From positions 28,411,916-28,475,915 of the forward strand of contig CM067367.1 in NCBI GenBank assembly GCA_034401795.1: DNA of 64,000 bases, read 5' to 3'. Positions 17,657 through 61,520 of this stretch are shown one piece after another. Source of the DNA: Chaetoderma sp. LZ-2023a (Eukaryota > Mollusca > Caudofoveata > Chaetodermatida > Chaetodermatidae). Position 1 is the first letter of the stretch, and the number at the start of each line of letters is the position of its first letter. The notes under the pieces are model-generated. The model was not told the DNA's origin, made no database searches, and worked only from the letters and a program-made list of their open reading frames with translations. Both the position numbers and the translations under genes were made by a program.

Positions 17657-20526
17657 AGCTCACCTGAAGGGCCAAGTGAGCTTATGTCATGGTAGCCATC
17701 CGTCGTCTATCTGTCCGTCTGTCAAGGTTTTCATTTAAACAACTCAAGAACTACTAGGTGGATTTAAAACAATTATGGCAGTAACCAACCTTGGGGCAAA
17801 GATTCAAGTTTGTAAGAAATTAAACTGACAGTGGCCATCTTGCATTTAGTCAGATTTTTTTAAACTGCTTTTATAATCAAACTTGGCAGATGTGTTCCTT
17901 TAGGCAAGATATATTTATTGGATAGATATGAAGTGGCCGCACCCTAAAATACCAGAGTTATTGTCCTTGTAAGATTTAAGTATTGAAACCTGCTGGGAAA
18001 ATGTGTTTGTAGTACGTTTTGACATTTGTGGATGGATTAAAACTTAATTTCGGCAATATGTATTTGTGATATGAATATGGAGTAGTCACTCATTCAGATA
18101 TATTTATGGCCCTTTTTAGATTTTCAACGTATTGAAAACTATGGCGAAAATATGTTTGTGGCAATTTTCATGACTTCACACTTCTTCTTCTTCTTTTCGT
18201 TCGCTGATCATACCACCAGTCCTGTAAGTGACTATCGACATGATCATAAGCGTTAAGTGCGTGGATCCATGGTTTATTAGAGTGCGCCGTGCGGCCTGGA
18301 ACCTCCGTCTTCAGCACTCGAGGTTTCTGTCAGGGTTACCTCACCCTTACCTCTTTTAATCGCCTCTTACGACACGCAGAGGATACGGAAGGTGTATTCT
18401 AAGCCCCACCTACAGGGCAAACTTCACACTTTTTAGGTCTTTTTTACGCCTCTGGTGCGTTTTTAAGTTAAGTTGGTTTTGACCAACACTAGAAAATTTA
18501 AAATGCTTCTTTAGCTCAGCTGGCTTGTCACTCGGCTGAGCTATAGCGATCACTCGCTGTCGAGGTATGTCCGTTTGTCCACAATGGTGTCACAAATCTC
18601 CATTTCTTGATGGATTAAAGACAAATTTGGCAGATATGTTCCTTTGGGCAATATCTATTTGGACTGTGAAAATCAAGTGGCTACGCCTTCAAATAACAGA
18701 TTTATGGCCTTTATTAAATTTTCAATATATCGAAAGCTATGGGGGAAAATGTATTTGTGGCACGTTTTGTCATTTCTGAATGGATTAGGACCAAGTTTGG
18801 CAAATACGTTCTCTTTGGCAATACTTATTTGCTCTCTGGATAAGATGGGGGCCACACCGTCAAATCGCAGTGTTATGGCCCTTTTTCACTGTGATGAGGC
18901 CTATGGTGAAAATACGTTTATGGCAGGTTTTGTCAATTGTTGAATGATTAAAATCAAATTTGGCAAATATGTTCCTTTGGTCGATATCTATTTGGACTGT
19001 GAAAATCTAGTGGCCACGCTCTCAAATAACACATTCATGGCCCTTGTTAAATTTCCAATGTATTGAAGTCTATGGGGAAAATTTCTCAATTGATTAGGAG
19101 AAAATTTGGATTATTATTGATTCCGCAGGGTTTTTTTTGCGGGGGTGGGGTGGTGGAAATATTAGATTTCATGAAAAAATTTACCAAAAGGTTTACTCCT
19201 CCTTAACGACTTGGTGGATTTCAACCAAATTTGGATGGAAGGAGCTTATGGTGTTACGCTTCATAAAGTTTGTACAGAATTTTGTTCATTCAATCTTTTT
19301 CACAAAGATCTCATGAAAAATTTACCAGAGAGTGTCAAAATGCAACTGCCCCTTGACTACTTGGTTGATTTCATCCAAATTTGAATGAAAACACCTTATT
19401 GTGATAAGCTTCAGAAATATTATACAGAATTTTGATCGGCCAATTTTTTTTGGTGAAAGACCATAGATTTTTATGAGATCATTCTCGGAATCTGTCAAAA
19501 TACTATTCCTTAACGACCTGGTGGAACCTTATGGTGTTAAAAGCCTCAAAAGTCTTGTACAGAATTTTAATCGGTCAAGTTTTTTATGGAAAATTTACTG
19601 TCAAAATGCTACTCCTTAATCACTTGGTGGATTTCAACAAAATTTGGATGAAAGGACCTTAGGTTGGTAAGCTACAGAAAAGTTGTACAGAATTTTGATC
19701 GGTCAATCTATTTGGGAAAAAATGGTGAATTATTTTGATTAAAAACCTAGATTTAATGAAAAATTTATGGTGTTAATTATTTTTAAGCTTCCAAAAATGT
19801 ATACAGAATCTTGATTGATCAATTTCTATGGTGAAATTTGGGATGGAAGGACCATATGGAGCTAGGCTTAAAATATTGTGTACAGAATTTTGATTGGTCA
19901 ATTTTTTTGTGAAAAAATGATTTTATGAAAAATCGGAATTCTGAGCCCATAGGAAATTTAGAGGCCATGCAATTCCTATGGACATTCTGGACACAAGAAC
20001 TTTATTACTTGCCAGGAACAATTGGAATGCAGGAACAATTGCACTTGCAGACCCTCGCCTTCATCTCATGTTTGTGCAAGAAGGATTGCACTTGAGGACC
20101 TTGGCCCTTTGCAGACCCTTACTACTTAAGCTGACCAGTACCCCTCTTACAAACCCTTGCCCTAAACTCAGTGTGACTTGTATGAAGGTCATTCATGATC
20201 AAGGTCATTTGGCATCAAGCTTATTCATGGCCATCAGAGTCATGGTCAATCAGAGTCAAGGAGGTTTAGGTTCTAGATCAATCAGGGTCATCTGCGTCAA
20301 GGTCATGGTCATTTGGGGTCATTTACACTATGGTATCATGGTCATTTGCAAATATTGGGGTCAATATCATTCAGGGTTATTGTCAAGGTCATTCATGATT
20401 ACTGGGATGGATTACTTCTAGTTTCAGTGGCCATCGTATGCAAACAACGTGTATTGGTCATTTTGCCAATGGCCAATAATCCCAGTTGAGCAATGCAGGC
20501 CCAGAATACAGGCCCTCTGGGCCTCA
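17657..20526 (+). mobile_element. Helentron-like repeat with a nested second copy
   Basis: Starts AGCTCACCTGAAGGGCCAAG (paired with GTGAGCT) and ends CCAGTTGAGCAATGCAGGC, followed by GGCCCTCTGGGCCTC. A second 5' start of the other subfamily (AGCTCAGCTGGCTTGTCACT) lies at 18513, and a retroposon (18181-18418) sits between the two, so the region is layered. Units repeat CAAATTTGGCAGATATGTTC and CAACCAAATTTGGATGG. The distal part (about 20180-20400) is an irregular array of GGTCAT/AAGGTCAT words that opens a 147-residue ORF of no coding significance. Confidence 0.55.
18181..18418 (-). mobile_element. Retroposon with GAA-repeat tail, copy 1
   Basis: On the minus strand the element reads GAGGATACGG...GTCGTAAGAGGCG, GGGTGAGGTAACCCTGACAG, AACCATGGATCCACGCAC, CAGGACTGGTGGTATGATCA, ending in (GAA)n. 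A 5'-truncated second copy on the + strand is at 60816-60995 and ends in the same tail. Shared 3' ends with a simple-repeat tail and variable 5' truncation are typical of LINE 3' fragments or SINEs. No ORF. Confidence 0.7.
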
Positions 20527-35254: not shown

Positions 35255-36890
35255 GTGTTACATGAGAGAAAATTACCAGCAGTGAGAGAACTCTTGCACG
35301 TTTCCAGCACATCAAAGGCTGAAGATCCACCAAGTGAAACCAGGATGTTTCTATTGACCATAATTATTTTAGTGATTTAAGTCCCCGTAAGTTAAAGCGC
35401 AAATATAATGACATTCTCGATGACAAGGAAAACTCCTTAAAGCACTATCAAAATACATTAGCGACATCCAGAAAGCGAATTAAGAGGCAAAAAACACTAT
35501 TAATATTATGAAGGAGGTTTTCACAGAACTTAATGAGAAAAATCTTCTAAATGAAAATGGATTGGTAGTTTTATTTTTCTAGTGTAAGCCTTGATTTGTT
35601 TAAGAAACAGCGTCTGGCTGACAAAGGTCACTATAGCGAAACACTGAAATCATTTTCCTTAACGTTGAACTTTTATTTACCCAAAGCATACAGCTATGTA
35701 CGTGATGTATTGAAATTCTGCCTTCCACACCCAATCACTCTTAGAACATGGTATTCGATGGTTGACGGTTCACCATGTTTTACAGAGGAGGTATTCAATG
35801 CAATTAAACATCAGGCTAGTTCTGCAAGTGTGCCACTTTCGTGTGCCTTCATCTTTGATGAAATGGCACTTAAGCAAGTGGTAGAGTTGGATGGGTAAAA
35901 CTTTGTTGGTTATTTTGATCTTGGTATTGGTGCCGTCGTAGATTCAGTTCCTGTGGCCAAAGAGGCGCTTGTATTTATGGTTGTAGCTACAAATAGCTCC
36001 TGGAAAATTCCAATCGCATATTTCCATTGATGGTATGTATGCCATTGATAAGCCTAATCTTGTCAAACAGGTGATCTTGAAAGTTCATGATTGCGGGGCT
36101 TCTATTGTATCTTTGACCTTTGATGGATCAACTGTTAACATATCCATGGCCAATCATCTAGGTGCAGTGCTGGGACCAGATATTACTACCATCCGGCCCT
36201 ATTTTGCCAATCCGGTCGATCCCACCACAAAGGTATTTGTATTTCTAGATCCCTGCCACATGATTAAGCTTATCAGAAATTGATTTGCCCATAATGGTAT
36301 TTTAGTAATCATGGATGGTAAGCAAGTTCAGCGGTCTTACGTTAAGAAATTGTATGATCTGCAAACAAGTGGAAGTTTCCGGCTGGCAAACCGATTGCGA
36401 AGGAATCACATCGAATGGTATCAGCAAAAGATGAAAGTGAAGCTTGCAGTGCAAGCTTTAAGTTCATCTGTATCTAAGGCTTTAGATTTTGTGGAGAATG
36501 TCTTAGAATTGCCCGAGTTCATTGAATGTGGACCTACTGCTGAGTTCTGGTCTTTCTTTGATCGTCTGTTTGACATGCTAAATTCAAGAAATGCTTATAC
36601 TAAATGGTATAAAGCTGTCCTACGTGAATCTAACAGTCCGTTCTGGGTATCCTTTCTCCACAATTCCCTTCAGTAGCTCTGTTGTCTTCAATTAAATAGA
36701 GGTACCAATGATTACTGAATGAAATCGTACACCAATAATTGGGTGTGTAGCAGCATGTATGGCTCTTCCTGTTGTGCTTGATGGTTTTTCAGTTTGATAC
36801 GCGGTAGACGTGGTTGGAACAACAACCCCTCATCTCAGCAGTTTCGTGCAGCCTATCAGCGTATGTAGCAATTTTACCCCGCAGGATGAT
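35255..36890 (+). pseudogene. THAP9/P-element transposase, decayed catalytic region
   Basis: After an acceptor (TTATATTTCAG) the coding trace shows a charged coiled-coil-like stretch (SPRKLKRKYNDILDD, SRKRIKRQKTL), then the P-element transposase core: LTLNFYLPKAYSYVR, CLPHPITLRTWYS, AFIFDEMALKQ, FVGYFDLG, KEALVFMVVATNSSWKIPIA, LTFDGSTVN, VFLDPCHMIKLIRN and, near 36820, RGWNNNPSSQQFRAAY. These are the conserved blocks of THAP9 and Drosophila P transposase, including the first acidic catalytic position in FDEM. At least four breaks interrupt it: a frameshift near 35370, stops at about 35896 and 36281, and frame changes after 36676. The 3' part resumes at 37665 after an inserted segment. It once mobilised P-type elements; it cannot now. 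Confidence 0.85.
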
Positions 36891-42830: not shown

Positions 42831-43026
42831 ACTAACAGCAAAACCGGCCTGGCTGAGTGCTAGACGTCGAGTGTAATAGTGGAGTATAGGACGCGTTTTC
42901 TCTAGTCAATACCTCCATGGGGTACCAAGTGAGACTGAAGAGTTATCTTCTCTTGGATAGAGACGAGAGTGGCGCCCTCTGTTTGTTTGACTAAATAGCT
43001 TATTCGACTTTAGCCTATTTCATTTG

Positions 43027-43565
43027 GCGTAGTTGTCTGTTCTGTTTGTCATTGATGTCTGTTCTGTTTGCCATTGATGTCTGTTCTGTTTTTCATTATT
43101 GTCCGTTCTGTTTGTCGTATTTGTCTGTTCTGTTTATCATTGATGTCTGTTCTGTTTGTCATAGTTGTCAGTTCTGTTTGTCGTAGTTGTCTGTTGTGTT
43201 TGTGGTAGTTGTCTTTTCTGTTTATCGTAGTTGTCTGTTCTGTTTGTCATTGATGTCTGTTCTGTTTGTCATTGATGTCTGTTCTGTTTGTCGTAGTTGT
43301 CTGTTCTGTTTGTCATTGATGTCTGTTCTGTTTGTCGTAGTTGTCTGTTCTGTTGGTCGTAGTTGTATGTTCTGTTTGACAATAATCTATTCTGTTTGCC
43401 AATAGCCTGTTCTGTTTGATATTAGTCTGTTCTGTTTGACACATAAGTCTGTTCTGTTTGATAATAGCATGTCCTGTTTAACAATAGTCTGTTCTGTTTG
43501 ACAATAGCCTGTTCTGTTTGACACATTAGTCTGTTCTGTTTGGCATTAGTCTGTTCTGTTTGACG
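43027..43565. repeat. GTTCTGTTTGTC minisatellite
   Basis: About 25 tandem copies of a 20-21 bp unit TGTTCTGTTTGTCATTGATG with GTAG, AATA and ACACATTAG variants. It gives a spurious Cys/Val/Phe-rich ORF. Confidence 0.95.
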
Positions 43566-46754: not shown

Positions 46755-46870
46755 TGACATTATAAGTGATGGGAAAATTGTATTAGATGTTGAATTACGT
46801 AAACTTGAAATTGTTTCCACATGGTTCGCATTATGAAATTGAGGCTAATTCGATGATAAACAGCAGAATT
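46446..46870 (+). repeat. Module D with AT microsatellite
   Basis: Matches module A from TAGTTCCCTATAAGGTTCCG through the palindrome GGTCACCGTGACC (46512-46524), ATGTCCACATCAAATATTCA, an AT tract (about 46689-46749) to GTAAACTTGAAATTGTTTCC, and carries on with AATTCGATGATAAACAGCAG as in 22005-22030. It lies 25 kb away from modules A-C. Confidence 0.75.
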
Positions 46871-46904
46871 ATCTCCCTTGCAAATTTTCTTCACTGTGGG
46901 CCAC

Positions 46905-47990
46905 ATAATACACCGGCTTCTTCATCTGTTGTCCAAATTCTACCAGCACGAAGCTATCAATTTGTACATGAGCAAAGTTAACTGATCCAGTATGAATTAT
47001 TTCATTCCCTTCCTCGTCCTCCGTAAAGTCAGAAATTCCATCATCACTATCATCTTGTAGTTCAACTTCCTCTTCTGCCGAGGAGGAACTTTCTTGCTGG
47101 TTTCTAGGATTGGTGCATGGTTTCTGTATTAACTGTCTTCTGGTGTCTTGCGTGGACACTCTTTCCCTTTTCGCCGCTCTAATTTCTGCCACCTCGCGAA
47201 TCCGCTTCAGCTCTAGTGTGGACGTTGCTATCATAGTTTTTCCCCTTTTCCTTCCCGTAGGCTTACTTGCTGTTTTTTGCTCAGGCGCCTTTGGGTATCC
47301 TAGGATACGATCTGGAGTTAGAAAACCACTTTTCTTAACAACATTGTCTTGTACAAGAGGAGGGGATGATGGTTCAGCCGAGATGGATGCAGTGGATGCT
47401 TCATTATTGGTCTCAAGGTGGTAATCACTTGGCACTGGACGATCAGTAACCGATGATGGTAGAAACTCCTCCTCTTTGAAAGCATCACGGTTAAACCGCC
47501 AAATTCCCGAAACACGGAAGCCTGAAATGATGTTCTTTGGGCAGGCAGCTTTCGGCCATGCTGCACCAACAAGCTGTGAAACCTGGTAGATGCTAATTGT
47601 TTTGCCATGATTAAGCATCATCCATCAGTTAGCCTCCGCGTTATAGTAGGCTTTTAGTGGTCCAAAAACAGCTCTATCCAATGGCTGTGTCTTATGGCTT
47701 GTATGCTGTGGAAGAGTTAGAATATGAATACCATGCTCCTTTGCATACTCAATTCTGTTCAGAGGGGCATGGCTTTCATGATTGTCCATGGTGAGAACAA
47801 GATGGTTTTCTGGCGAAGCATGCGTGTGTTTGGCAACATGTTCCAGCACTTTTAATGAACAGTTCAGAGTTCATCTAACCGGAGTCTGTAGCTAATCCCA
47901 ATGATCCTTCCGGAGCTCCCGTCAGGAAAATGTCCTGATAGTTCTTATGAGGAAACACAAGAACTGGTGGCAATGCTTTAAAATGTAGTA
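46905..47990 (-). pseudogene. Pogo/Tigger-like DDE transposase, 5'-truncated and broken
   Basis: The minus strand reads PPVLVFPHKNYQD, GAPEGSLGLATDSG, then VLTMDNHESHAPLN (second catalytic Asp in MDNHESH), GIHILTLPQHTSHKTQPLD (the SH..QPLD motif before the third acidic residue) and VFGPLKAYYN, which are DDE_1 (pogo/Tigger/jerky) signatures. The tail has an acidic/Ser-rich segment (SSSSAEEEVELQDD) and ends near VLVEFGQQMKKPVYYV, where it runs into module D. Breaks: a stop after ATDSG with a frame change near 47875, and an in-frame TGA at 47625-47627. The N-terminal HTH half and first catalytic Asp are missing; beyond 47990 the sequence is unrelated repeat. Confidence 0.85.
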
Positions 47991-49441: not shown

Positions 49442-50560
49442 AGCTCAGCTGACTTATCAGTCAGCTGAGGTATAGAGATCACCCAGCATCCGGCCATCTG
49501 TCCGTCTGTCGTAAACTGGTGGCACGTTTTGGAATCAACAGTAAATCATTCAGTCATCCATTTCTGCCATCTTTGGAGCAATTTTTGCCAAATTTGCTCA
49601 ATATGTTCCTATGGGCATCTACTATATGCCTTGACAAAAGGATGCCGATTGAATACCAAATTTCAGAGTTATCTCCCTTAAAAGTTTTCTACACTATGGG
49701 AGCCAATGTGGAAAGATTTTTCTTCAGTGGCACATTTCTTCATATTTTGAGCTATTGTCTTCTAACTTGTAGGGTGGGCACCTATGGGCATAAGCTACCG
49801 CCCTCATAAGAAATATGTCACCCTGACCTAAATTCGGGCGAATGTAGGTCAAAGGTCAATTGCCCAATTGGAATCAATAGTAAATCAGTCAGTCATCCAT
49901 TTCTGCCATCTTTGGAGCAATTTAAGCCAAAATTGGTTAATATGTTCCTATCAGCATCAACTATTGGCCTTGCGAAAATGACGCGGATTCGATACCAAAT
50001 TGCAGAGTTACCTCCCTTAGAAAAATTTCTGCAGTATGGGAGCCAAGGGGGAACGATTTTTCTTCAGTTTCACATTTCTTCATATTTTGTTGAGCTATTG
50101 TTTTCTAATTTGCATGGTGGGTACCTATGGGCATACGCTACTGCCGACATCAGAAGTACGTCACTGTGACTCAGATTCCAGACAATATCTATAGGTCAAA
50201 GGTCTATTTTGCCATTGTAATCAACAGTAAATCATTCAGTCATCCACTTCTGCCATCTTTGGAGCAATTTTAGCCAAATTTGGTCAATATGTTCCTATAG
50301 GCATCTACCATCGGCCTTTTTTTAACTTGCAGGGTGAGTACCTATGGGCATTAGCTACTGCCCACAAGAAGTAGGTCACTCTGACCTAGATTCCGGAGAA
50401 TATATAGGTCAAAAGTCAATTTTGTCATTGTAATCAATAGTAAACCATTCGGTCATCCATTTCTGCCATCTTTAGAGCAATTTAAGCCAAATTTGGTCAA
50501 TATGTTCCTATAGGCATCTACTGTATTTCACTTCATGAGAACATACTTACCCCCTTAATA
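49442..50560 (+). repeat. Tandem repeat array headed by an AGCTCAGCTG end
   Basis: Begins TAGCTCAGCTGACTTATCAG paired with GTCAGCTGAGG. Units restart with AGTAAATCATTCAGTCATCC at about 49540, 49889, 50228 and 50440 (the last two closer together), each with CTGCCATCTTTGGAGCAATT and TCAATATGTTCCTAT. No recognisable 3' hairpin, so the copy is 3' truncated. Confidence 0.7.
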
Positions 50561-50964: not shown

Positions 50965-50967
50965 GAG

Positions 50968-51125
50968 TAGTCCAGTCAATCTAGGCCAAAAATACTTTAA
51001 CCCGGAACAAATTGCAACAGAATTTTTTTACCTCGCCCAGTGTATAGGGGGTCATCATGTACAACATATCAAAAGTCCTCCAAAATCCCAATAGGGGAAA
51101 GGGTAAAATTTGCATAATTATTACC
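50968..51125 (+). repeat. Left terminal inverted repeat
   Basis: Begins TAGTCCAGT; shares GGAACAAATTGCAACAGAAT and CATATCAAAAGTCCTCCAAA with the right repeat. Similarity fades past GGTAAAATTTGCAT. Confidence 0.85.
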
Positions 51126-51424
51126 AGATTTGGGACATTTCACCTATAAAATCCATTTTTCTTTATTTCTTTAAAACCGGTATGTAATATATGTGTGACT
51201 GGGTATTTTTGGGCTTTTTTAGTAATAAATGAATACGATTGACATATTCTCCACAAATTAAATGTATTGTGTTATGCCACTTGCATGAATTTACCTAATA
51301 CCATCATTGATATTGATACAATACATATTATATTTTATTATGTCACGGTATTGTGTGTTTCTAAGCTAAGCTAAGATGAAATAGTATGGCATAGGTACCT
51401 GGTTTCTACTAATTTCATCTTGCA

Positions 51425-52228
51425 TCAATTATCCAAGTCATCTTCCTCAATGAGCGTTATTGAATTCGAGCAACTGAGACCCTTACAGTCTTCGCAGGCA
51501 GATGTGCAGCTGAGCCCATGTTTTCTACAGGTGCATCTCTTTGATTCACAGCCAGTTTTGCAGCTGCATCTAAATGAATACAGTAAATCGTCAGGTGCTG
51601 CCAGCATGTCAGTCTTAACAGGCAGCATTTGGTGGTTGAGAACTTTCCAGCCCCATTCTGTTGGATCCATATCTCCAGCATCTCCTCTCCAAACTTGAAT
51701 TTGGTAGTACACGCGAAGACTGTGAAACTTTGCGGATGCGGGTGTTGGTGGTAAATCTCGTGCTTCAACATACTTGGAACTTTTTGCAACCTTCTCCCTG
51801 AATCGCTTGTACCGCAAAGCAACTAGACTATCCATTGAAGTGCCATTGTATAGAATAAGCATTGCCTTCTCACCTGCTTTTATCACGTCATCTTTATTCG
51901 CATTACTCATTGTAAACACTTCAGCAATTTGAGAGAGTTCTTTGCAGCACTGGATTTTGCTAAGGGATGCAGATTTTCCAATTCCATAAAGCCTAGATGT
52001 TGAGTCACAGCCAAGGATAGCATGGATAAATAACAGCTGTGAGCATAAACAGAACCCGAGTTTTTCCTTTGCCATTTTGATATTCCACAGTCGGGGTTTC
52101 TTTGCATTTTGCTTTGGCTTTGGTCTGAAAAATAGCTGACAGCCATTCATATCAGTATGGTATAGAAGCAACACCAGTAGGTCGGTATCGTCTCTAACAA
52201 GAGCAGTATTTGTTGACTTTGAAGCCAA
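51425..52228 (-). CDS. C-terminal ORF: FEN/XPG-like nuclease end plus CXC domain
   Basis: 267 residues from the first Met of this frame; the frame itself extends upstream to the TAG at 52337. DDTDLLVLLLYH (13-24) is the strand with two acidic residues of PIN/FEN folds, and GCDSTSRLYGIGKSASL (73-89) resembles the GCDY..GIPGIG helix-three-turn-helix that clamps DNA in FEN1/XPG. The tail has cysteines at 221, 223, 227, 232, 234, 241, 245, 248 and 253, spacing CxCx3Cx4CxCx6Cx3Cx2Cx4C, similar to tesmin/TSO1 CXC DNA-binding domains. It ends in an acidic EEDDLDN. Such proteins would cut flap or branched DNA at transposon ends; inference. Confidence 0.8.
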   Translation of the reverse strand: MASKSTNTALVRDDTDLLVLLLYHTDMNGCQLFFRPKPKQNAKKPRLWNIKMAKEKLGFCLCSQLLFIHAILGCDSTSRLYGIGKSASLSKIQCCKELSQIAEVFTMSNANKDDVIKAGEKAMLILYNGTSMDSLVALRYKRFREKVAKSSKYVEARDLPPTPASAKFHSLRVYYQIQVWRGDAGDMDPTEWGWKVLNHQMLPVKTDMLAAPDDLLYSFRCSCKTGCESKRCTCRKHGLSCTSACEDCKGLSCSNSITLIEEDDLDN

Positions 52229-52469
52229 GATAGCCGTTTGCGTAATTAAGACATCAGCATCACCGCTTGCCTTTATCGTTAAGCATCCAGCCTGTTCGAG
52301 AGATGAACTTAAGATTGATATGAACCGATGTTTGTTCTACTTGTTACTAAGAAAAGCAGGCTTACTCAGAGTTACAACTGTTTGCGGAGTCAGTACAACA
52401 GTTGCGCCTGATCCACGAGTTCGCCTCTTATGTGTTACATCTTTTATGTCTGGGCCTTGGTCATAACCA

Positions 52470-54122
52470 TCAAAAACTACTGTAGCCTTTCCATATTTGC
52501 TTATGCAATATTTTACATATCTTTGACAAACATGACTGTCTCCTTGAACGCAGAAACAAAGAGAAATCCCAGAGGATGTCAATGTCAGCTGTTGGGTCTG
52601 TTTGTTCCATCGCAGTTAACTCCTTAAAGGTCAATGGGAAGTTCCTCGTATGCTGAGACTCAAAGTTCCTGATACAGATCTTGCCAACTTGCTTGATATC
52701 TTCAGATGTTACATTTATCCTTGGAATAAGTTTGCACGAAAGTTTTCCTGGTGTAACAGATGCAATGATTCCGATTCCATGAAATGTATTATGCCCATCT
52801 ATTGTGCAAATATTGTGATCCACATTGTCGGCAACTAACTGAATGAACTCGCCTGATAATGGCTGTGGTAGATCTCCACCATGAAGTGATGCACTGCGCT
52901 CAAACCTCTGTATCTCCGCGTATGAACATCCAAATCCGTGCTTGTACAAGGTATCAACAATAAATCTAGATCCAAATGTATGGTGCATCTCACATGACAG
53001 CCCGAACTGCAAAGGTGCCAAAATAACTCTAGGACGAGTTCCTTGCATAATAGCCTGTCCAACTGATGCCTGTTTCATTTCTGTGTCTTTTCCAGTAAAC
53101 AAAATCCGCGATAATTCCCGCAGTGTCTCTGGTAAATAATTCAATGCCTTTACTGGGTCGCTCATTTGCTCCCTTGATGGATAGCTTTCAGATGATGTGC
53201 ATGAATCAATTAACTTAATATCGTGTCTAAGCAGTTTGGCAGCTGTCTGGATGATTAGCATGCTCTCTGATTTGGAATCCTTTCTCTTCTGTTCCTTATA
53301 GAAGTCAGTCAAAATAGTAGATGCTTTAGAACGAAAGGTAACAACGTTTGGCTTACCATTCACAGTGCTAATAAATATTTCATCGCCATAATTATCTTTT
53401 ATTTGATCCTGCATGTATTTTGTACTGTATGCTTTATTCTCTTTATCATCGAGATACTCTTGCATTTTATTAACGAGGTCGTGCAGGGTCAGCTGCTCAT
53501 CATCATTATTTTCAAGAAATGCCATTGTCGCACTAAATGCTCTTACTCTGTCCAAGTCTTCTGGCCTTCCATGTTTTTGGGATGAGCAAGATGAGTGCAG
53601 CTGAGGGATATTTTTCATGGTTCGAAAATTTACGCTGCAGCTTTGATGGTATACTGCATTGACAACGCATAAATCCGGCGTGAAGGCAAGCCGCCCAGCT
53701 ACAAGTTTGCCCCATTCGTCTTTTCTCTGCTCACAGGCCTCGGCGATACTACATTGAAAGTCATGAGTACTTACTGGATAAATATCATAGCCACGTTTCT
53801 TTCCATCTTGAATTTTTGCAGGGTATCCGCATAGCAAACAATGTTCACTAAAATTGAATGTTGGACTTTCTGAACGGAGTGTTCGCATGGGTGGCGGAGA
53901 TTGTTCAATTTTCTCTGCGTCACGGGCAATCCGCTTGGGATCAATGAACTCCCGTCGACATTTTACATGAACCCTCTGTCCTACTTCAGCTATGACATCG
54001 CTTTCACGGGCTCTGCTAGCATTGTTAATACCGTCACAGCCTTTAACTCGAAGCTTAACAGTTTGTGAGCCATTTTCTAGGCTCTGGTTACAAATAACGC
54101 ATGTATCTAAATCCATGTCCAT
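52470..54122 (-). CDS. N-terminal ORF of the transposon gene (550 residues, intact)
   Basis: Starts MDMDLDTCVICNQ. Two similar metal-binding clusters are visible: C8, C11, H52, C55 and C95, C98, H159, C162 (CVIC...HVKC and CLLC...YHQSC), each followed by a basic/aromatic RREF or VNFR. A charged region (about 180-330) is followed by a conserved block near 370-450 with LQFGLSCEMHHTFGSRF, KHGFGCSYAEIQRFE and NVDHNICTIDGHNTFHG. The His/Asp-rich NVDHN..T.DGH.TFHG motif is the most conserved stretch I recall for the family, but its function is unknown to me. The last about 25 residues after DILW are out of family frame. The open frame over 1.65 kb with protein-like composition indicates a recently active gene. 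Confidence 0.85.
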   Translation of the reverse strand: MDMDLDTCVICNQSLENGSQTVKLRVKGCDGINNASRARESDVIAEVGQRVHVKCRREFIDPKRIARDAEKIEQSPPPMRTLRSESPTFNFSEHCLLCGYPAKIQDGKKRGYDIYPVSTHDFQCSIAEACEQRKDEWGKLVAGRLAFTPDLCVVNAVYHQSCSVNFRTMKNIPQLHSSCSSQKHGRPEDLDRVRAFSATMAFLENNDDEQLTLHDLVNKMQEYLDDKENKAYSTKYMQDQIKDNYGDEIFISTVNGKPNVVTFRSKASTILTDFYKEQKRKDSKSESMLIIQTAAKLLRHDIKLIDSCTSSESYPSREQMSDPVKALNYLPETLRELSRILFTGKDTEMKQASVGQAIMQGTRPRVILAPLQFGLSCEMHHTFGSRFIVDTLYKHGFGCSYAEIQRFERSASLHGGDLPQPLSGEFIQLVADNVDHNICTIDGHNTFHGIGIIASVTPGKLSCKLIPRINVTSEDIKQVGKICIRNFESQHTRNFPLTFKELTAMEQTDPTADIDILWDFSLFLRSRRQSCLSKICKILHKQIWKGYSSF

Positions 54123-54434
54123 ATTCTGATTGAATTGTATAGAAATTTATTCAAATTGTGAGATAAAAGTGAAAATTAAAATGCAATTTATTTTAGATAA
54201 AATTTTAAAAGCGAAAAACAAAATTAAACGTACTTTAAATATAATTTTTTAAATTACCCCGGCCCTACAACCATATTTAATCTGTGGTTTGGAGAATCCG
54301 TACAAGTGGTTCAAGGCAATATTGCCAATTGCTTACTGTCTTCCGTGACCATGAAATTCAGAGCTTAGACAACATTTCTACTTCGTTTATTTGCGGAATG
54401 AAGCAGGTAAGGGAAGTTTCATTATTCGGATAAT

Positions 54435-54588
54435 GGCAGTAGCTAAATATGCGAATTTACCCACTTTCCCATCGAGGGATTTTGGAGGACTTTTGATATG
54501 TGACACCTGGCAGTCCCATGAATGCCGCAGAAAAGAAATAAATTCTGTTGCAATTTGTTCTAGGTTAATTTGTAGTTTTACTGGACTA
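54435..54588 (-). repeat. Right terminal inverted repeat
   Basis: On the minus strand it begins TAGTCCAGTAAAACTAC, then AACCTAGAACAAATTGCAAC and CACATATCAAAAGTCCTCC, ending near GTGGGTAAATTCGCATA. Mirrors the left repeat in order and spacing with small indels. Confidence 0.85.
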
Positions 54589-54591
54589 GAG

Positions 54592-58861: not shown

Positions 58862-61520
58862 TGGAATATCCCTTTAAGTCCACATGGTAAATATTCCACA
58901 ATATATGATAATGTGGGCATTCACTATTTGAATATCACCCTGATTTGGTGGAGAACATTCTTGAGTGATGAGGATGAAGATGGCCACCGACCACCAAATT
59001 CTTCCATAGTAATGAAATGGGAAATAATGTTTTCTCTAGAACCATTAGGCGGATATCAACCAGTTTGGTAGCAAACATCCGTGGATTATAGATTTGCAAG
59101 TCTGTTCAAGCGATGACGATGGCCACCAGCCATTATGAACTCCCAGAGTAAATCAATGGAAAATCTTTAATGTCTTCTCGCGACCCACTGAATGAATGTC
59201 ACCCAAATTTGGAAACATCAGTCTTGTGCGATATGGATGCAAATTGGCTCAAACCAAGCTGATTGGCTAAACTCCAAGATGGCTGTCGGCCATTAATATC
59301 TCCCATAGCAGAGCAAGGGAGAATTTGCAACGACTTCTTCTGGAGCACCACTGGGCTGATTTCAACCAGATTTTGAGTAACCATCTTTGAGCTCGGCAAT
59401 AGGTATACAAGTTTGTTCAAATGAAAACCAATCAGCCAAAATGCAAGATGGCCACTGGATGTGACAATTTCCCATAGTAAATCAATGTGGTTGTTTGCGA
59501 CAGGCTGTGGAGTTATGTCATGGCGGGCCTCCTCTTTGTGGCATGATAACCATAACACATATAATGACATACAGACATACCACCTCCACACAACTGTATA
59601 TAAGTCCACATGGTAAATATCCAGGTCCACATTGTTACATATATTTTATATATAAATATATATGACAATGTGGACATTGAATATTTGATAATGTGGACAT
59701 CAGTAATATGTGAACTTATATAATACTAATGTCCACATTATCAAATATTCAATGTACACATTATCATATAAATACAGTTGTATATAATGTTGTTCATAGA
59801 AAAGATAATACCAACACACACATGAATATTACTGATGGCCAGAAAATCTGCTTCAAATACACTAACACATAGAATTGACACATACAGACATACCATGTCC
59901 ACACAACTGTAGATATCTTAAGTCCACATGTTAAATATTCCATGATATATGATAAGGTGGACGTTCACTATGTGGATAAACAGTTCGGCGACCATCTTGG
60001 ATTGCTTCCCTGGCAAAAAAATAGTAAAGCAATGAGATTTAAATGTTTTCTCAAGAACCACTTGGCAGATTTCAACCTGACTTGGTGGGGACCATTCTTG
60101 ATTCATGAGGATGAAGATGGCCACCGACCGCCGAATTCTTCCATAGTAACGAAATGGGAAATAATGTCTTCTCTAGAACCATCAGGCGGATATCAACCAG
60201 TTTGTTAGCAAACATCCGTAGGTTATAGAGATGCAAGTTCGTTCAAACGATGATGATGGCCACCAGCCATTACAAACTCCCAGTGTAAATCAATGAAAAA
60301 TTTTAAATGTCTTCTCGCGACCCACTGAATGAATGTCAATCAAATTTGGAAGCATCAGTCTTGATCGATATGGATGCAAATTGGCTCAAACCATAGCAGA
60401 GCGATGGGGAATTTGCAACGACTTCTTCTGGAGAACCACTGGGCTGATTTCAACCAGATTTTGCAGTAAGCATCATTGAGCTCAGCAATAGGTATACAAG
60501 TTTGTTCAAATGAAACCAATCAGCCAAAATCCAAGATGGCCACCGGATGTGACAATTTCCCATAACAAATCAATGGGGTTGTCTGCGAAAGACTGTGGAG
60601 TTGTGTCATGGCGGGCCTAGTCTTTTTGGCATGACAACCATATAAACCATATAACACATACAAAGACATACAGACATACCACCTCCACACAAGTGTATAT
60701 AAGTCCACATGGTAAATATTTAGGTCCACATTGTTACATATATTGTATATATAAATATATATGACAATGTGGACATTGAATATTTGATAATGTGGACATC
60801 AGTAATATGTAAACTAAAGGAGGTAAGGGTGAGGTAACCCTGACAGAAACCTCGAGTGCTGAAGACGGAGGTTCCAGGCTGCACGGCGCACTCTAATAAA
60901 CCATGGATCCATGCACTTAATGCTTATGATCATGTCGATAGTCACTTACAGGACTGGCGGTATGATCAGCGAACGAAAAGAAGAAGAAGAAGAAGATATA
61001 ATACTAATGTCCACATTATCAAATATGCAATGTCCACATTATCATATAAATACAGTTACATATTACTGATGGCCAGAAAATCTGCTTCAAATACACTAAC
61101 ACATAGAATTGACACATACAGACACAACATGTCCACACAACTGTAGATATATTAAGTCCACATGGTAAATATTCCAGAACATATGATAATGCGGGCATTC
61201 ACCATTTGGATAAACAGTTTGGCGGCCATCTTGGATGGTTTCCGTGGCAAAAAGCCCAGTAAAGCAATGAGATTAAAATATTTTCTCAAGAACCACTTGG
61301 CAGATTTCACCTTTATTTGGTGGGAAGCATTCTTGAGTGATAAGTATGAAGATGGCCACCGATCGCCAAATTCTTCCATAGTAACGAAATGGGAAATTAT
61401 GTCCACATGGTAAATATTCAGGTCCATATTGTTACATATATTGTCTATGTGATAATGTGGACATTGAATATTTGATAACGTGGACATCAGCCTTATGTGG
61501 ACTTGTATATATGTGAAAGG
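58862..61520. repeat. Tandem array of about 1.2-kb composite units
   Basis: Each unit carries TAAGTCCACATGGTAAATATTC, ACAGTTTGGCGGCCATCTTG, GGTGGGAAGCATTCTTGAGT, GATGAAGATGGCCACCGACC, CGGATATCAACCAGTTTG, then the palindrome TGGACATTGAATATTTGATA and ACCATGTCCACACAACTG. Equivalent positions: GATGAAGATGGCCACCGACC at 58972, 60110 and 61346; palindromes at 59667-59762, 60766-61040 (interrupted) and 61450-61500. The Helentron-like core words (CAAGATGGC, CGACTTCTTCTGG) are embedded, so the unit itself is a composite of two families. ORFs of up to 143 codons in it are repeat artefacts. Confidence 0.75.
60816..60995 (+). mobile_element. Retroposon with GAA tail, copy 2, inside the satellite
   Basis: GAGGTAAGGGTGAGGTAACC, AAACCTCGAGTGCTGAAGAC, CCATGGATCCATGCAC, GACTGGCGGTATGATC, ending AAAAGAAGAAGAAGAAGA. 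The unoccupied site is visible in the sister unit at about 59703-59716 (GTGAACTTATATAATACTAA), showing a clean insertion between AACTA and TATAATACTAA. Shorter at its 5' end than copy 1 (18181-18418). Confidence 0.85.

Follow-up and report, generated by a model that had tools for sequence, protein, structure and literature searches.

The window analysed here is a 64,000-nucleotide stretch of the genome of the caudofoveate mollusc Chaetoderma sp. LZ-2023a (contig CM067367.1 of assembly GCA_034401795.1). It contains a transposon with terminal inverted repeats (TIRs), which occupies exactly positions 50968-54588, begins with TAGTCCAGT, ends with ACTGGACTA, and has GAG directly next to either end. 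Its gene lies on the minus strand and is seen as two open reading frames (ORFs) of 550 and 267 amino acids (aa) in different frames. These carry C..C/H..C clusters, an NVDHN..DGH.TFHG block, VVFDGY, GDADVLI, and DTDLLVL motifs, GCDSTSRLYGIGK, and nine C-terminal cysteines. A first-pass annotation of the window had given the same coordinates, termini, and GAG flanks as well as the ORFs and motifs, and all of these are found there. It had also described a single minus-strand gene for a FEN/XPG-like nuclease joined to a CXC domain. The gene is indeed on the minus strand, but it is not intact; what the window holds is the fused remains of one gene.

The end pattern of the TIRs (at most two mismatches) occurs at two places in the window, which are the two element ends, both without mismatch. 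By chance, 0.54 occurrences are expected on average, and at least two are seen in 8 of 100 shuffles. The arms are imperfect, with matching blocks of 38 nt (89%), 33 nt (91%), and 16 nt (88%). In a complete copy of the element found elsewhere in the genome, L025, the TIRs align over 154 columns at 71%.

L025 encodes one protein of 1,482 aa without a stop, and comparison with it explains the two ORFs. The window copy has a 1,757-bp deletion that removes ~586 residues and shifts the frame, so that ~40% of the protein is absent. The missing residues (~531-1117) include TFDQP (from aa 586) with its conserved TFD (D588) and YVLDGGA (from aa 1095), which carries the first nuclease Asp. The N-terminal remnant retains the paired C..C/H..C clusters (starting at 54101, 53969, 53840, and 53648) and ADNVDHN (starting at 52832). 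Six of the seven FEN-like acidic positions survive in the C-terminal remnant, as do GCDST..GIGK and the CXC-like cysteines; this remnant is interrupted by one in-frame TAG (~52337-52339), through which the 267-aa ORF extends upstream as far as the deletion junction. The window feature is therefore a non-autonomous, internally deleted transposon copy and not a complete element (Table 1). Because ~586 residues are deleted, the anatomy of the window copy is uninformative on what the complete protein lacks.

Table 1. Features of the transposon copy, in window positions; residue numbers are those of the complete copy L025
Feature	Position	Strand	Basis or remark
Target-site duplication GAG, left	50965..50967	.	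Flank reading
Left TIR, ~150 bp, imperfect	50968..51121	+	Inner end from L025 alignment
C-terminal remnant, ~aa 1118-1482	51425..52530	-	Comparison with L025
Nine-cysteine CXC-like tail	51464..51571	-	RCSCKTG starts at 51571; end counted from translation
Junction of the 1,757-bp deletion, CAT at both breakpoints	52531..52533	.	Comparison with L025
N-terminal remnant, ~aa 1-530	52534..54122	-	Comparison with L025
Right TIR, imperfect	54444..54588	-	Inner end approximate; 145 bases aligned in L025
Target-site duplication GAG, right	54589..54591	.	Flank reading

The deleted form is not confined to this locus. When 100 bp across the junction were used as a query (1504 first-look candidates, 40 scored), four of the 40 scored places matched over the full length at 100% identity, and the matches at the remaining 36 began only at position 40-49. 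Two of the four junction places were read, the window copy and L018, and their target-site duplications (TSDs) differ (GAG and TCA, respectively). They are therefore separate insertions, and the deleted form itself has moved.

Many copies of the element exist in the 2.44-Gb host genome. A 203-bp query from the left end gave 1819 first-look candidates; all 40 that were scored, the window copy included, are 97-100% identical to it. Twenty of the other 39 were fetched, and both ends were delimited in 19 of the resulting 21 copies (L013, with the left end only, and L019, with an incomplete right end, were dropped). The same element ends are found in 19/19. Ten of these copies are 5,338-5,392 bp long (complete copies, ~5.38 kb) and nine are 3,141-3,918 bp long, the window copy among the latter. 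Deletion derivatives are thus common in this element family. Besides L018, the shorter copies with both ends (3.1-3.9 kb) are L011, L012, L015, L016, L024, L026, and L028.

An exact 3-bp TSD is present in 18 of the 19 delimited copies, and a duplication of at least 4 bp in none; mismatched pairs of flanks agree in 24/342 cases. Target preference is mild: TAA is duplicated in 5/19 copies, and C just outside the left end and G just outside the right end are each seen in 9/19. These copies support the first-pass description of a mobile TIR element, and its proposed search with the TIR recovers full-length copies and gives the duplication length. Pairwise identity among the ten complete copies, L018, and the window copy is 98.0-99.4%. 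Differences of the 11 other copies from L025 fall almost evenly on the first, second, and third codon positions (124/140/160), the pattern of copies that have decayed since a recent burst of insertion. Among the 32 best-scoring matches to the protein (of 21,336 candidates), eight have a stop-free protein, including that of L025.

The complete protein consists of paired N-terminal zinc-like clusters, a centre with two Asp motifs, a FEN/XPG-like region, and a CXC-like tail. In Pfam, L025 gives DUF6589 (PF20231) at 16.7 bits and DUF3876 at 0.18, and no XPG, PIN, CXC, or helicase match. The pieces in the window give DUF3876 (0.09) and BREX_BrxC_helical (0.28), both far under the cut-off. When the protein or pieces of it were compared with NCBIfam, PADLOC, and PDB sequences, nothing useful came up. 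No relatives were confirmed in IMG/VR or GTDB contigs or in phages, where the query was the 550-aa ORF only.

DUF6589 leads to a second family. Its profile has 102 scored matches in the host genome, all above the cut-off, and is absent from the control genomes (0/14). Thirteen of 14 DUF6589 loci match the L025 protein in tblastn (best piece at E <= 7e-13, with 19.5-45.5% identity in the pieces); the exception is L031. These loci make up family B, seven aligned members of which are 22-24% identical to L025 of family A, and all eight aligned proteins match DUF6589 at E <= 1 (best 1.5e-14). The DUF6589 entry itself gives no function. Where covered, both families keep ADNVD, TFD, a DG motif, FDxY, an acidic-A-D motif, DxD, GCD, and the cysteine tail, in identical order along the protein; the Asp of FDxY is substituted in L041 and L042 of family B. 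Loci L035-L044 of the host genome represent this divergent DUF6589 family of the same architecture, and the main pieces of nine of them are ~95-97% identical to L041. L041 carries a direct repeat of ~170 bp.

The C-terminal part of the protein resembles archaeal FEN1. In HHalign, the nuclease region scores 30.6 (P 0.0016) against an alignment of 26 archaeal FEN1 proteins (30 picked from 53 loci, four dropped for stops). The best of 200 column shuffles reaches 22.5 (0/200 reach 30.6), and the reversed alignment 10.6. Other 275-column stretches of the protein score 13.4-21.5 upstream of the nuclease region and 14.9, 19.0, 23.3, 25.2, and 25.2 where they overlap it. In the unforced alignment, E152, E154, D173, D175, and D236 of FEN1 fall exactly on Asp residues of L025, and GCDST..GIGK, with its helix-hairpin-like motif, aligns to the GTDYN..GIG of FEN1. 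An extended alignment of low confidence also places D27 and D80 on Asp, so that all seven invariant archaeal acidic positions would be represented (7/7). The first of the seven is the one lost from the window copy. Most of the nuclease acidic residues are common to the two families at ~23% identity. Single members of the alignment (one of four in each case) give weak Pfam matches to NYN_YacP (0.0079), 5_3_exonuc_N (0.19), and TCR (2.2), and the XPG_I profile finds three places of 10 scored in the host genome. The profile comparison and the acidic positions support a FEN/XPG-like domain, as the first-pass annotation had predicted. The region is filed as FEN/XPG-like rather than as a family member, XPG_I having no match to L025. 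It also differs in having Asp where FEN1 has E152 and E154, and in lying within a far larger transposon protein.

The CXC part of that earlier description stands less firmly. The tail does have nine cysteines in a CXC-like motif, mostly conserved in family B, and we take its CxC spacing to be like that of Tesmin/TSO1 CXC domains. The corresponding Pfam profile (TCR) reaches only the weak E = 2.2 noted above. In PDB, the L025 tail has no match and the family B tail has only chance-level matches to C1q.

Two Asp motifs mark the central region, ADNVD (D432/D435) and TFD (D588). They are invariant in four aligned proteins of the two families, having been retained in the second family at ~23% identity. 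The NVDHN block, for which the first-pass annotation knew no role, is the first of these motifs and may be part of a catalytic site: ADNVD and TFD are candidates for the motifs that supply the first and second residue of a DDD/E (Asp-Asp-Asp/Glu) triad. The case for a DDE core rests on these two motifs, on the fixed 3-bp TSDs, and on the literature. Fixed 3-bp duplications are typical of DDE strand transfer. In their available parts, one source lists Academ among the DDD/E superfamilies (PMC9587614) and another treats it as a DDE/D group (PMC10294476).

The element family can be compared with two known types of Academ transposons. According to the available part of PMC10045372, which places them in one superfamily, AcademX has TSDs of 3-4 bp and AcademH of 9-10 bp, a difference tied to the presence of a nuclease or a helicase. 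Curated bivalve Academ elements have a mean length of 5,565 bp (PMC10294476, available part). The 3-bp TSDs, the long TIRs, the length of ~5.4 kb, and the FEN/XPG-like region of the present family all fit AcademX, from which the window copy differs in being a deletion derivative. AcademH, in contrast, is ruled out by the lack of a helicase match in Pfam together with the 3-bp duplications. An Academ-type filing is well supported, and the family is best placed as a new one of the known, nuclease-bearing AcademX type, an assignment made from printed descriptions and not from comparison with named Academ sequences. The Academ-type filing of the first-pass annotation holds on this basis; it had rested on an XPG nuclease and cysteine-rich domains, which we take to be characteristic of Academ.

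The best explanation of the locus, to which we give a probability of roughly 0.82, is that the window copy is an internally deleted member of a recently active AcademX-type cut-and-paste family whose protein combines a putative DDE-like core with a flap-nuclease-like part. The zinc-like and CXC-like parts would bind the element ends. The central core would excise the element and join its ends to target cuts staggered by 3 bp, and the flap-nuclease part may trim branched or 5'-flap intermediates. Deleted copies would arise when incomplete repair is joined at short repeats, and intact copies could supply the protein that moves them in trans.

Several results weigh against this explanation. In the central region, sequence searches of Pfam and PDB give no DDE match, and the third catalytic residue is not placed. 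In the nuclease region, HHalign assigns FEN1 a probability of 16% (a single comparison of low diversity), confidence is low where the alignment is extended to D27 and D80, and XPG_I has no match to L025 at E <= 10. AlphaFold2, run on the C-terminal remnant of the window alone as a single sequence, yields no usable fold (mean predicted local distance difference test score 31.2). The DUF6589 score of L025 (16.7 bits) is below the 27-bit cut-off, one delimited copy (L027) lacks a matching 3-bp duplication, and the Academ filing follows printed descriptions, with no named Academ sequence among the comparisons.

The first-pass annotation had proposed that transposition relies on a flap-nuclease fold in place of a DDE integrase. 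If so, the FEN/XPG-like region would do the cutting, with the zinc-like and CXC parts directing it, and the central region would be structural; the latter indeed has no sequence match to any solved DDE enzyme, and the nuclease acidic residues are, for the most part, conserved across two families that are ~23% identical. This proposal, however, is unsupported, since the copy behind it has lost the relevant part: the deleted segment carries both D588 and the first nuclease Asp. The invariance of ADNVD and TFD and the fixed 3-bp TSDs (18/19) also speak against it, as does the DDD/E listing of Academ in the available part of PMC9587614, and it now appears very improbable. A different possibility is that the element belongs to a sister lineage of Academ, a separate superfamily in which the transposase core is unrelated and the nuclease and the cysteine tail are shared as a result of exchanged domains. 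The low identity between families A and B (~22-24%), the weak DUF6589 match of L025, and the scope of the Academ comparison leave some room for such an origin. It is nevertheless unlikely, as TSD, length, and nuclease fit the descriptions of AcademX and bivalve Academ (PMC10045372 and PMC10294476, available parts), and the order of motifs is the same in both families.

Within an AcademX-type family with a DDE-like core, the nuclease could have a more active part. It may make or trim the second-strand cut and so fix the TSD at 3 bp, compared with the 9-10 bp of AcademH; we regard this as doubtful. If true, this family, which is young and has several stop-free copies, would be a natural test system for how an accessory nuclease sets TSD length. 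The available parts of PMC10799480, PMC12730594, PMC12477816, PMC8905726, and PMC9143410 add nothing on mechanism. Showing the deletion removes the claim of a flap-nuclease-driven transposon. What remains is a young, many-copy family with stop-free copies, exact 3-bp TSDs, and a re-mobilised deletion form, well suited to the question of what the AcademX nuclease does.

Other repeats and probable transposon remains are found in the window. A 121-aa ORF (36311-36676, plus strand) matches Pfam TNP-like_GBD (PF21788) at E 2.4e-32 and is probably a remnant of a P-element/THAP9-like transposase. A 250-aa ORF (46869-47621, minus strand) has no Pfam match at E 0.1; we assume a likeness to the end of a pogo/jerky-type transposase. 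Tandem arrays with units of 339 bp and 213 bp (49529-50521) end ~450 bp before the element, and another with ~25 copies of a 22-bp unit lies at 43023-43562. Finally, an inverted pair of 178 nt (18181-18358 and 60815-60992), 97% complementary and 42 kb apart, probably represents two copies of one dispersed repeat.

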